This document shows positions 55,055-58,876 of a stretch of DNA of 64,000 bases, piece after piece (position 1 is the stretch's first letter; every line of letters begins with the position of its first letter). Location of the stretch: contig DATCTN010000025.1 in the NCBI GenBank assembly GCA_036567965.1, forward strand, positions 62,001 to 126,000, read 5' to 3'. Below the pieces are notes generated by a model. That model worked only from the letters and a program-made list of their open reading frames with translations, had not been told where the DNA came from and did not search any database. The translations under genes and the position numbers were made by a program. Origin of the DNA: Candidatus Kryptoniota bacterium. GTDB lineage: Bacteria > Bacteroidota > Ignavibacteria > Kryptoniales > JAKASW01.

Positions 55055-55849
55055 TCAGAGCGAACCGCCTCCGAACCCACCACCGGGGAACCAGACCGCC
55101 TTTTCATTCGCTATCACGGTGCTGTATGAGTGCAGCATCCCGTAGTTGAGGCAATGCACTGCAAACCAATCGAGGTTCTCGATGCGGGAAAGTTCTTCCT
55201 TTATCTCATCAAGCATCAGGACGCTGTCCTTGCGTTCGGAATGAATCTTTCGTATTACAAAATTCTGATCTTCATCGGTCAGGAAGGAATAAAGCGGAAC
55301 AAGCGAATGACGATCGACCATATCTATCAGGTCTTCGGGATAAATATCCTGACTCGACTCAGTTTCTACTACGACCGTGCTGAGCTGTCCGAACAAACCC
55401 CTATGCTCATCATTGCTGAAAGACTTGGGATAGGTCGTGATGACAGGAACACTGATCTTAAAGAGGACCTTTACCGACTCGATGCTTGTGATCTTGGCGG
55501 AATAAGTACAAATATAGCGCGTCATACACTTTTCTTTTGATACCGGTGTTATTTTTTCGACGAAGAAAGGATACTCGAAATCTATTCTCACCATAGTGGC
55601 ATTAAGCTCCCTTATGTAGTCCCCTATATTTTGTTTCAACGCCTTCGTACCTATCGTTCCACGATGGCGGTGCAGGATCTGGATTACCCTATCTATCCAG
55701 CCGGCCTCGAACTCCTGCATAATCCTTGCGCTCACAGAAAGATTGGCGACTGTCGGCTGACCATCAGGAAACGATTTGGACAGCACTTTAATTGGAAGTG
55801 GAAGATCTCTTATGCCGACATCAGCGAGAAATCTCTTTTCTTCAGACAT
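55055..55849 (-). CDS. divergent FolE2-like (GTP cyclohydrolase I type 2 fold) protein
   Basis: ATG 55849 overlaps the stop of the upstream gene by eight bases and has AAGGTG seven bases before it; 264 residues result. The sequence follows FolE2 order: DVGIRDLPLPIKV at the N-terminus, QPTVANLSVSARIMQEF, strand IDFEYPFFVEK, ISVPVITTYPKSFSNDEHRGLFGQLS, LIDMVDRHSLVPLYSFLTDEDQ, and NYGMLHSYSTV. In FolE2 the segment after the VPV strand is usually LCPCS with the metal-ligand Cys; here it is TYPKS, and the N-x-E-S-I-H segment reads NYGMLHS, retaining His only. The standard GTP-opening chemistry is therefore doubtful. It ends in GGGFGGGSL. The third gene of an operon with two acetate-kinase homologues. 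Confidence 0.72.
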   Translation of the reverse strand: MSEEKRFLADVGIRDLPLPIKVLSKSFPDGQPTVANLSVSARIMQEFEAGWIDRVIQILHRHRGTIGTKALKQNIGDYIRELNATMVRIDFEYPFFVEKITPVSKEKCMTRYICTYSAKITSIESVKVLFKISVPVITTYPKSFSNDEHRGLFGQLSTVVVETESSQDIYPEDLIDMVDRHSLVPLYSFLTDEDQNFVIRKIHSERKDSVLMLDEIKEELSRIENLDWFAVHCLNYGMLHSYSTVIANEKAVWFPGGGFGGGSL

Positions 55850-56930
55850 GTTCTTCACCTTTTCGATTAATGGTGTGAATCGTTTTTTCGGCCAGCACTT
55901 GCCAGCGGTCGTATTCGAAGCACAACACTCTGACTCTCGATTCCGGACTCGACAACACGGTCGGCCGTTCCTCCATTCCGTTGCCTCCACTGCACATCAC
56001 GCCTAAGAACTCAAGCCTGTTACATAGTTCTCTGATGAACTTCATATACATCCCTATCTGCACACTGCTGAATATTATGGCATCGAGACCGCCGAGAACG
56101 GAGACGAAAGCGCCGACAGACTTCAAAACCTGGTAAGTGTACAGCTCGCGGGCAAAATCGTACGACTTTCCTTGATGTCCTCCAACCACATCTTCCATCC
56201 GCACACTTTTTCCGACAAGGGCTCTGAACCCGCTCTCCTCTGAGAGAAGATGGTTTGTTTCATGCAGGGAGAATCCCGATGACAATAGATAGAAGACTAC
56301 CGTCGGGTCCATGTCTCCACAGCCGCCCTCTGATATTATTCCTTCGATTGGTGTAAACCCGATAGAAGTTTCGATTGCATTTCCATCGAGGATCGCCGCG
56401 ACGTTCGTGGTTCCTCCGAGGATCACGCTTACTATCCTTTTCAGATCTGCGTCTGATTTCTTGTTTAATTGAGCCAACGACCATTCATGTTCCAAACCAT
56501 AACCGCCGTATCGTCTAAGCTCCCTCTCCCTCAGCTCTGCCGGGACGGCATAGGTTGATGATTCAGCCGGCATTTTGCTGAACAAACCCGTTTCGCAGAG
56601 AACGACGTGGGGAACCGAAGGAAGGCTTTGTGAGGTATGCTTTGCGGCCTTAAATGTCAACTCGTTGTACTCAGGCAATATTCCAATAGATGCTTCCAGA
56701 TCTGCAAGAACCCGGCTTGCCACAATCTCTCCTGAGTTTGTCATCCTTTTCCAGCCATTATAAAGCACGTAGCCTACGGCCTCGATCTCATACTTGTCTT
56801 TCAGGTCACTCAAGACAGAAGACATGGACGTGTCATCCGGGTCGCAGGAGCCTTGGTCCAAGACGCCTGCATTACAGTATGCCCACCGCAGCTTCGGAGG
56901 AGCTGGATCAAACAGCAATACGGTTTTCAT
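55842..56930 (-). CDS. acetate-kinase-fold protein lacking catalytic residues (pseudokinase)
   Basis: The 362-residue protein aligns with the neighbouring acetate-kinase homologue in its second half: VILGGTTNVAAI for HLGTGGSSVAAI, SIGFTPIEGIISEGGCGDMDPTV for SMGFSPLPGLVMSTRCGDIDPMM, HLLSEESGFRALVG for the KESGLLGISG segment, and LGGLDAIIFSSVQIG. Acetate-kinase residues are replaced: the NCGSSS phosphate loop reads DPAPPKL, GHRFVHGG reads GYVLYNGW, FDTAFH reads LCETGLF, GFHGLS reads GGYGLEH and STRCGD reads EGGCGD. It should not phosphorylate carboxylates. It overlaps the upstream gene by 23 bases and the FolE2-like gene by eight, suggesting a complex of fixed stoichiometry. Confidence 0.75.
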   Translation of the reverse strand: MKTVLLFDPAPPKLRWAYCNAGVLDQGSCDPDDTSMSSVLSDLKDKYEIEAVGYVLYNGWKRMTNSGEIVASRVLADLEASIGILPEYNELTFKAAKHTSQSLPSVPHVVLCETGLFSKMPAESSTYAVPAELRERELRRYGGYGLEHEWSLAQLNKKSDADLKRIVSVILGGTTNVAAILDGNAIETSIGFTPIEGIISEGGCGDMDPTVVFYLLSSGFSLHETNHLLSEESGFRALVGKSVRMEDVVGGHQGKSYDFARELYTYQVLKSVGAFVSVLGGLDAIIFSSVQIGMYMKFIRELCNRLEFLGVMCSGGNGMEERPTVLSSPESRVRVLCFEYDRWQVLAEKTIHTINRKGEEHV

Positions 56931-58128
56931 TTTTCAACAGCTTCTCCCCCTCCTCGTAGATAACCGCTTCCTCATCGTTGGGAACAACCCAGACCCCCAC
57001 TGAAGAGCTTCCAGAGTTGATCGAGGTAATCTCGTCGCCGGATGCCCCGACATTCAGGTATTCATCAATGTCGATCCCACACCACTCCATTTCTCTGCAA
57101 ACCATCTGCCGCACGTACCAGTTATGCAGCCCGATGTCATCTGTAAAGACAAGGAGATCGATTCCGCCGAGCTCCGCGATAAAGCTACCGATGAATTTTT
57201 TTATCCTGTGCACATACATTTTTATTGCAAGATCTGTTTCTTCGTTTCCGTTCTGATTGTAACGATTGATAATATCCCTTATGTCGCTGGAGAAGCCGGA
57301 TATCCCAAGCAGACCGCTCTCCTTGTTAAACAGGTCCATGAGGAGTTCCGGCCTATAACCATACGTGATCATGAGATAGGTAGCCATCATCGGATCGATG
57401 TCTCCGCATCGTGTGCTCATCACCAGGCCGGGCAACGGAGAAAATCCCATTGACGTATCCAGAGAATGTCCTCTCCGAATGGCCGCGACACTCGATCCTC
57501 CGGTTCCCAAATGGCAAGCAACTATTCTCGAATTTTCCAGAGAGCTTTCCAGGTAATCTTGCAAGCTTTTTAACACATAAGAATAGGAGAGTCCGTGAAA
57601 ACCGTACTTCTTGAATCCAAACCTTCTGACAATGGTCTTCGGCAATGGATAAGTACTGGCGTAGGATGGAATGGTCTTATGGAATGCGGTGTCGAACACC
57701 ACATAATGCTTCACCTGGGGCAAAATCCTGCGCGATACGAGGATCACATCAAGCGCGACTTTGTTGTGAAGTGGCGCCAGCGCCACGCACTGTTCAAGAA
57801 GTCGAAGTGTCCTCTCGTCAACAAGTGTTGTCTCTGAAAATGATCTTCCGCCATGGACGAAGCGGTGGCCGATGTAATCGACATCAACATCGTGATCCTT
57901 CAAGAAATCCAACACGAGGCTTGCGGCGGCAGCGTGCGAGTCTAACGGAACAACCTTCTTTATCTCTTCACCACCGAAATCGAATGTCAGATAAGATGGT
58001 TCTGTACCCTTGACATGCACCCTGTGTGCCTTGCCTGCCAGGAGTACTTCCCGTTTTCCTGGAGATCTTACTTTGAAAAGCTTGTAAGTAAGGGAGGAGC
58101 TACCGCAATTGAAAACTAGTATATTCAA
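56908..58128 (-). CDS. acetate/propionate-type kinase homologue (ASKHA fold)
   Basis: The start is taken as TTG 58128 (LNILVFNCGSSSL), where acetate kinases begin; the frame is open to an ATG at 58191 whose extra residues are not conserved. The 406-residue protein keeps the acetate-kinase catalytic residues at near-standard positions: Arg89 (GHRFVHGG), His121 (APLHN), Asp146 (FDTAFH), His178 (GFHGLS), Arg240 (STRCGDIDP) and Glu386/387 (VVPNDEEAVI). Unusual are HLGTGGSS for HLGNGAS and FTDDIGLHN for the family's FTGGIGEN, so adenosine or acyl binding may differ. It heads an operon with a pseudokinase paralogue and a FolE2-like protein; no phosphotransacetylase is near. A role in acyl phosphate or another phosphotransfer is possible. 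Confidence 0.82.
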   Translation of the reverse strand: MNILVFNCGSSSLTYKLFKVRSPGKREVLLAGKAHRVHVKGTEPSYLTFDFGGEEIKKVVPLDSHAAAASLVLDFLKDHDVDVDYIGHRFVHGGRSFSETTLVDERTLRLLEQCVALAPLHNKVALDVILVSRRILPQVKHYVVFDTAFHKTIPSYASTYPLPKTIVRRFGFKKYGFHGLSYSYVLKSLQDYLESSLENSRIVACHLGTGGSSVAAIRRGHSLDTSMGFSPLPGLVMSTRCGDIDPMMATYLMITYGYRPELLMDLFNKESGLLGISGFSSDIRDIINRYNQNGNEETDLAIKMYVHRIKKFIGSFIAELGGIDLLVFTDDIGLHNWYVRQMVCREMEWCGIDIDEYLNVGASGDEITSINSGSSSVGVWVVPNDEEAVIYEEGEKLLKNENRIAV

Positions 58129-58333
58129 ATCCCAAATGCACCTTTTCAATATCGAGCCTGGATAGAAGAAAATCAATGCGGCATGAGGCATACTTCGTCA
58201 TCCGGCCGTTGCTTCTGCTACTCATATCTTGCATCCAACTGTCGCGGGGCCTTTCCGTTTTTCGTGCTCCGATGTGAATTTACCGATACAACTTTTTTGC
58301 CAAGATAAAGTTGCGTCGAACATGGGGGTAAAA

Positions 58334-58876
58334 TCATGAGCTTCTTGGCGCAGTGATGAGACTCGGCCGAAGTGATAAGCATGCTTCTGATTTCGAATTT
58401 GTACCATGATAGGCTTCTTCAAGCGAGAGCGTTGTCTCTGCCTCAAAATCTTCTCCTTTGATTGCGTAAGTCTTCCTTCTTCGTCTCTGGCCGCGCTCTT
58501 GCCCAAAAAGGAATTCAAAGAGATCGGCTGTGCCTTCATCCGCAAACATCGCATCGAAATCTTCACGGCTCATCCGATGTGTTTTGGCGCCTTGATCACT
58601 CGCATATCTCGACCAGTCGAATCCTCCTGGTTGTGCTCCAGCTTCCTGATAGTGCTTCCAATCTTCGCCGAATTGATCGTACTTCTTCCGCTTTTCCGGA
58701 TCGCTAAGGACTTCATTTGCTTCGTTCACTTCTTTGAACTTCTCCTCGGCGACTTTATCTCCCTTGGTTCTGTCCGGATGGTACTTAAGAGCAAGCTTTC
58801 GGTATACGCTCTTGATTTCCTCTGGTGTTGCATTTTTTGTGACACCTAACACTTTGTAATAGTCTTTGTAATTCAT
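58334..58876 (-). pseudogene. DnaJ/CbpA-like co-chaperone truncated after the start of its substrate-binding domain
   Basis: The frame encodes a complete J domain ([24 protein letters not shown] in [36 protein letters not shown]), a glycine-poor linker, and the start of the C-terminal domain ([23 protein letters not shown]), as in CbpA. It then runs into [14 protein letters not shown] and a stop, with no continuation of the two beta-sandwich domains in any frame downstream to 58200. A CbpA would be about 300 residues; this is 180. The J domain could still stimulate DnaK. It is co-directional with the acetate-kinase-like operon that starts about 200 bases downstream. Confidence 0.75.

Follow-up and report, generated by a model that had tools for sequence, protein, structure and literature searches.

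Within the window, a stretch of 64,000 nucleotides from a Candidatus Kryptoniota bacterium, positions 55055 to 58128 hold three overlapping genes encoding an acetate kinase (P0001), a degenerate paralogue of acetate kinase (P0002), and a FolE2-like protein (P0003). On balance we lean towards reading these genes as a horizontally spread cassette, in which an acetate kinase dependent on pyrophosphate and orthophosphate (PPi/Pi) would be accompanied by a dead partner subunit and a non-catalytic T-fold protein.

56908..58128, minus strand: P0001, acetate kinase, putatively of the Entamoeba histolytica acetate kinase (EhACK, PPi-dependent) type, 406 amino acids, TTG start (PF00871, motifs, tree)
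55842..56930, minus strand: P0002, predicted catalytically dead acetate-kinase paralogue and proposed partner subunit, 362 amino acids (PF00871, AlphaFold model, residue table)
55055..55849, minus strand: P0003, FolE2-like T-fold protein lacking metal-site and catalytic residues, 264 amino acids (PF02649, structure-profile match, model)

Recomputed coordinates bear out the overlaps of 23 and 8 bases given in a first-pass annotation of this DNA, with P0001 and P0002 sharing 23 base pairs (bp) and P0002 and P0003 sharing 8 bp, all on the minus strand, and the TTG start of P0001 recurs at the same point in the kinases of the Myxococcales relatives L036 and L040. P0001 matches PF00871 with 377 bits and P0002 with 155 bits, P0003 matches PF02649 with 80 bits, and only P0001 scores above the NCBIfam ackA cut-off; the families returned for the second and third proteins are those first proposed for them.

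Numbered as in MtACK (1g99), the reference for all kinase motifs given here, P0001 retains N7, S10, S12, R91, H123, D148, H180, R241, and E384, together with the acetate-pocket residues V93, L122, F179, and P232. The PHOSPHATE1 motif of P0001 reads S-S-S-L-T, with the Lys missing (K14 to T), the PHOSPHATE2 motif reads HLGTGGSS, with the same extra Gly as EhACK where ordinary enzymes read HLGN-GSS, and the ADENOSINE motif reads FTDDIGLH. Common to P0001 and EhACK are the K14 to T and H184 to Y replacements, the Gly inserted in PHOSPHATE2, and the loss of E334-N335, and by a sequence criterion position 331 is bulky or non-Gly in both (Asp in P0001, Gln in EhACK), compared with Gly in ordinary AckA, a change that may block the adenosine pocket. 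Among solved structures the best match of P0001 is EhACK (4h0o), well above the bacterial enzymes, with P0001 sharing 44.6% identity with EhACK versus about 33–41% with ordinary acetate kinases (ACKs), and EhACK sharing 44–48% identity with the cassette kinases versus 32–39% with ordinary ACKs. P0001 does share with ordinary AckA (EC 2.7.2.1; MtACK, 1g99; TmACK, 2iir; and L001, the ordinary AckA also encoded by the window genome) the fold, R91, H123, D148, H180, R241, and E384, and the acetate pocket, but lacks the HLGN-G, Gly331, and GEN motif of these enzymes. The six classical residues are thus all present, as first annotated, although the EhACK type of the protein was missed; since P0001 groups with EhACK, the presence of these residues does not imply an ordinary ATP enzyme. 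More divergent acetate kinases, with HLGG-SSS, R91 to K, and D148 to E, occur in Humimicrobiia (L058, L059) and are ~29% identical to P0001.

The likeness to EhACK extends to phylogeny, with a maximum-likelihood tree placing the cassette kinases, the Pta-linked kinases described below, and EhACK in one clade (support 100/100), and EhACK as sister to P0001 (98/94). Shared motifs were ruled out as the cause of this grouping, as a tree built without the motif columns gives the same result (clade 100/99, EhACK and P0001 97/92). This strongly supported clade argues for common descent of P0001 and EhACK, and the affinity between the two suggests that the amoebal enzyme is likely to be of bacterial origin. 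Like the Entamoeba enzyme, P0001 most probably carries out the reaction acetyl phosphate + Pi <-> acetate + PPi, and with fair confidence we would assign it PPi/Pi as donor and acceptor. EhACK (EC 2.7.2.12, 4h0o) and P0001 thus have in common their clade, K14 to T, H184 to Y, HLGTGGSS, a non-Gly residue at 331, and the catalytic residues; they differ in that P0001 is bacterial, has Asp-Ile for Gln-Met at the adenosine pocket, shares its operon with a dead paralogue and the gene of a T-fold protein, and is known from sequence alone.

In P0002, N7, S10, S12, K14, R91, H123, H180, R241, and E384 are all missing, and across its family PHOSPHATE1, R91, H123, R241, and E384 are replaced (H123 remains in L038), with H180 changed to Tyr or Gln; on these residues P0002 is a predicted catalytically dead acetate-kinase paralogue. 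Of the losses first listed for this protein, those of the phosphate loop, R91, R241, H123, and H180 stand, but H184 is retained, and the change of D148 to Glu occurs in the window P0002 only, the cassette orthologues retaining Asp. Nor is the alignment confined to the second half of the protein, as had been supposed: the PF00871 match of P0002 begins at residue 43, and its AlphaFold model (pLDDT 84) adopts the full ACK fold, with a TM of about 0.8 to 6ioy and 4h0o. P0002 is 36–43% identical to its cassette orthologues.

The pairing of an extra-Gly kinase with such a paralogue reaches beyond the cassette, to a two-gene pair in Myxococcales (L078–L080) and to Omnitrophota (L107–L114). Where the sequence behind a bacterial extra-Gly kinase is available, the next gene encodes a dead acetate-kinase paralogue in 17 of 17 distinct kinases, counted after merging duplicates (the pair of the L054 kinase being seen as L078), compared with none of 46 ordinary AckA loci. 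Acetate kinases are dimers, with the dimer interface formed by the C-terminal domain. In L107–L110 the dead paralogue is reduced to 234–248 amino acids, having lost the N-terminal domain and kept the C-terminal one, and these partners give the strongest anatomical hint as to function: because they retain the dimer-interface domain, dimerisation would appear to be what is kept. The earlier idea of a pseudokinase serving as partner subunit is accordingly plausible, the dead paralogue always lying next to an extra-Gly kinase, and we consider it likely that P0001 and P0002 form a heterodimer, in which P0002 would pair with P0001 through its C-terminal domain and tune or stabilise it. P0002 could otherwise be a separate regulator, or an enzyme of a new reaction built on the acetate-kinase fold, rather than a subunit. 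The faster evolution of P0002 relative to its neighbours (dN/dS, the ratio of nonsynonymous to synonymous substitution rates, of 0.34 between L036 and L040) and the conserved motifs of its own family, which include FDPxPPxLRW and RRYGGYG, would suit such a role, but genes of P0002 type invariably come immediately after that of an extra-Gly kinase, in many cases overlapping it, and forms reduced to the C-terminal domain have survived, as would be expected of a dimer partner, making this alternative an unlikely one. The L078, L079, and L080 pairs are second extra-Gly kinase and dead paralogue pairs within the same Myxococcales genomes, with HLGSGGAS, Thr at 331, and no FolE2-like gene.

The family profile of P0003 matches FolE2 structures only (2r5r, 3d2o, and 8g6c), and a model of modest quality (pLDDT 60) shows the FolE2 fold, with FolE2 as the first structural match. 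In an alignment of 14 family members with NgFolE2 as the reference, P0003 has replaced C147, C149, H159, E201, E216, E243, and H248, the window protein reading Y, F, and Q at C147, H159, and E201, the three metal ligands of GTP cyclohydrolase IB. The same positions are occupied across the family by Y/D (C147), variable residues (C149), F/L/Y (H159), Q/R (E201), V/T (E216), G/S (E243), and Y (H248), whilst Q161 and H246 are retained. P0003 therefore resembles FolE2/GTP cyclohydrolase IB (PF02649) in its whole-length profile match, its fold, and H246 and Q161, and departs from it at C147, H159, E201, E216, E243, and H248. The active-site alignment confirms the first description of a FolE2 fold without the metal-ligand Cys, with TYPKS where FolE2 reads LCPCS, and adds H159 and E201 to the replaced ligands. 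An ordinary FolE is present in 11 of 11 genomes examined, which together with the missing metal ligands rules out P0003 as the GTP cyclohydrolase of the organism. Because the metal-site residues are replaced and FolE is present, P0003 most probably has no cyclohydrolase activity; it is a conserved T-fold protein (56–63% identity across phyla) that probably binds a ligand. As a presumably non-catalytic protein of FolE2 descent, it would serve either to bind a ligand, with purine and pterin nucleotides as conceivable candidates, or to scaffold the complex, and its specific assignment as a ligand-binding or regulatory T-fold protein is put forward tentatively.

Searching GTDB contigs with P0003 matched nine loci. 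The full order of kinase, dead paralogue, and FolE2-like gene is found in L035, L036, and L040 (Myxococcales) and in L038 and L039 (Omnitrophota), with a further complete cassette in L077, drawn from the same phylum as the Omnitrophota genome G300, and the last two genes only in L043 (Myxococcales), at a contig end. The three-gene order which the first-pass annotation proposed to look for elsewhere thus recurs in seven loci besides the window, all from Myxococcales or Omnitrophota and including a partial one, and at the junctions in these loci the genes share 4 or 23 bp, meet end to end, or are separated by a few bases. This conservation of order in other phyla rules out chance adjacency. Purifying selection maintains each of the three genes, the dN/dS values among the three Myxococcales copies being 0.12–0.18 (kinase), 0.34 (paralogue, from the single pair L036/L040), and 0.07–0.13 (T-fold protein); the three-gene unit is therefore real, as had been claimed. 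A reading of the genes as decaying, functionless remnants might draw on the loss of key catalytic residues from the second and third proteins, and on the frame breaks in some metagenome-assembled copies (the paralogue of L035 and the kinase of L038), but is very improbable given the open frames, the purifying selection, and the family-wide fixed replacements (Y/D at C147, Q/R at E201, and Y at H248).

The cassette is nonetheless rare, being found in 1 of 396 genomes of the window's phylum and 2 of 193 genomes of an Omnitrophota sample, with a kinase more than 50% identical to P0001 in only 1 of 237 genomes of a Myxococcota sample. Since the distribution is rare and patchy, horizontal spread would fit, and the single occurrence in its phylum, together with its absence from two congeners, rules out a core gene of that phylum. 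Exact-pattern seeds found no relative in viral contigs; a phage or plasmid origin was rejected on this result and on the plasmid matches, which are ordinary FolE2 at 20–24% identity. An anti-phage defence system was likewise set aside, no PADLOC model being matched by P0001–P0003.

A pathway context for the kinase pair is provided by four Omnitrophota operons (L108–L111), in which an HTH-cupin regulator, a PAS-GGDEF protein, and Pta precede an EhACK-type kinase and its dead paralogue. The Pfam matches of L108 are PF01381/PF07883, PF00990, and PF01515 (Pta, 329 bits), with Pta in L109–L111 called by matching sequence to L108. Pta converts acetyl-CoA to acetyl phosphate, and as it adjoins the kinase in these operons, the kinase has its acetyl phosphate substrate. 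The arrangement resembles the Pta-AckA pathway in having Pta immediately upstream of the kinase, and differs from it in the EhACK type of the kinase and in the dead paralogue that comes next. No Pta gene adjoins the window cassette, whose P0001 would likewise take acetyl phosphate from Pta; if Pi is the acceptor the net reaction would be acetyl-CoA + 2 Pi -> acetate + CoA + PPi. The PPi would then be used by the membrane H+-pyrophosphatase (H+-PPase) of the carrier genomes, a speculative step, this enzyme being present in 13 of 13 genomes checked versus 4 of 14 controls. The earlier remark that no pathway could be named holds for the FolE2-like gene, but for the kinase and dead paralogue the Pta operons name one; a nucleotide-modifying system, also suggested, finds no support. 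In three further Omnitrophota loci (L112–L114) an HTH-cupin regulator is followed by a kinase pair, whose extra-Gly kinase keeps K14 and has Ser at 331 and whose second member is a dead paralogue, with an M20-like hydrolase instead of Pta in L112 and L113 that may hint at another acyl source.

Several observations weigh against reading the locus as a cassette built around a PPi/Pi-dependent kinase. Residue 331 of P0001 is Asp and not the Gln of EhACK, and the sister kinases (pair2 and M20-linked) retain K14. The EhACK branch is long, and approximately unbiased (AU) tests do not discriminate between a nested and a sister placement of EhACK relative to the clade (p 0.26, 0.355), while the rejection of a placement beyond the extra-Gly group is only weak (p 0.027, 0.040). 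The 17 pairings fall within one clade and are therefore not independent events, the congeners without the cassette also have H+-PPase, and relatives of P0003 occur alone, without kinases, in Zixibacteria (L037, L115–L118) and Humimicrobiia (L041, L042). Furthermore, Dang and Ingram-Smith (PMC5517563) examined the extra Gly203 and the Gln323-Met324 of EhACK as structural differences and determinants of donor specificity, with the swapping of these residues switching the donor in neither EhACK nor MtACK; the motifs are therefore indicative, and sequence by itself is no proof of PPi use. The Asp at 331, the unconverted donor use after residue exchange, and the long EhACK branch would suit an ATP/ADP-dependent kinase of acetate or another acyl group with altered nucleotide contacts, acting as a regulated second acetate kinase, with the donor switch confined to the Entamoeba branch. 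We hold this to be rather unlikely, with the extra Gly, K14 to T/S, and the loss of GIGEN common to EhACK and to the cassette and Pta-linked kinases, and with an ordinary AckA (L001) already in the window genome.

As for the third gene, the existence of solo relatives means that the role of P0003 is not tied to the kinases. These relatives lie beside an ATP-cone/Mrr_cat gene or behind a clp operon, which, along with the high conservation of P0003, would fit an enzyme with a novel substrate, or a protein assisting some other process, that became joined to the kinase pair by chance in one mobile cassette. This is quite possible, if not what we would expect, and is countered by the fact that Myxococcales, Omnitrophota, and the window genome all retain the triple with its genes overlapping or end to end. 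Downstream of both Humimicrobiia relatives (L041:2724-3560 and L042:8791-9627), in the same orientation, lies the gene of a 278 amino acid protein with ATP-cone and Mrr_cat (restriction-endonuclease-like) domains; this protein shows weak PADLOC similarity to CARF-PDDEXK models.

Directly upstream of the window cassette, at 58222-58876 on the minus strand, lies a DnaJ-domain gene (PF00226) that stops early and has no recognisable DnaJ C-terminal region, and may be a remnant at the site of cassette insertion. The window neighbours (a BNR/Por-secretion protein, PepSY, and DnaJ) were rejected as parts of the system, as they do not lie beside other cassettes. In Myxococcales, PRC-barrel proteins precede the cassette (L036:4053-5708, L040:2426-4081, and L035:4526-5707), with a cation P-type ATPase further upstream in L036, and L035 starting similarly.

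A 2017 study (PMC5517563) described EhACK as the sole acetate kinase known to use PPi/Pi, and a 2022 paper (PMC9983610) still regarded its role as undefined, with no enzyme identified that would make acetyl phosphate for it. For the PPi-driven glycolysis of Clostridium thermocellum, a PPi-acetate kinase has been set aside, the sole acetate kinase being ATP-dependent (PMC8863071). A literature search, with most subscription papers outside its scope, returned no link between acetate kinase and FolE2 in the present sense, and neither a bacterial candidate for a PPi-acetate kinase nor a dead partner of an acetate kinase nor a FolE2-like family of this kind. The first-pass annotation is thus partly supported, having recognised the three-gene unit, the dead paralogue, and the FolE2 fold without its metal site, but having missed the kinship with EhACK, the broader pairing, and the Pta operons. 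Both outcomes that it named as refuting, absence of the three-gene order elsewhere and assignment of the second and third proteins to other families, were checked and did not hold. Taken together, the loci could represent a bacterial class of PPi-forming, heterodimeric acetate kinases with a dead paralogue, fed by Pta and joined in one cassette by a FolE2-derived ligand sensor, from which Entamoeba acquired its enzyme and then lost the partner; as a whole this joint reading is possible but doubtful.

For the pairing of a metabolic kinase with a dead copy of itself, the cassette is an example that can be put directly to the test. The bacterial clade that bears the EhACK signature, some of whose members lie in a Pta operon, is a likely origin of the amoebal enzyme, and as a candidate source of PPi in anaerobes it points to an unrecognised saving of energy as PPi.

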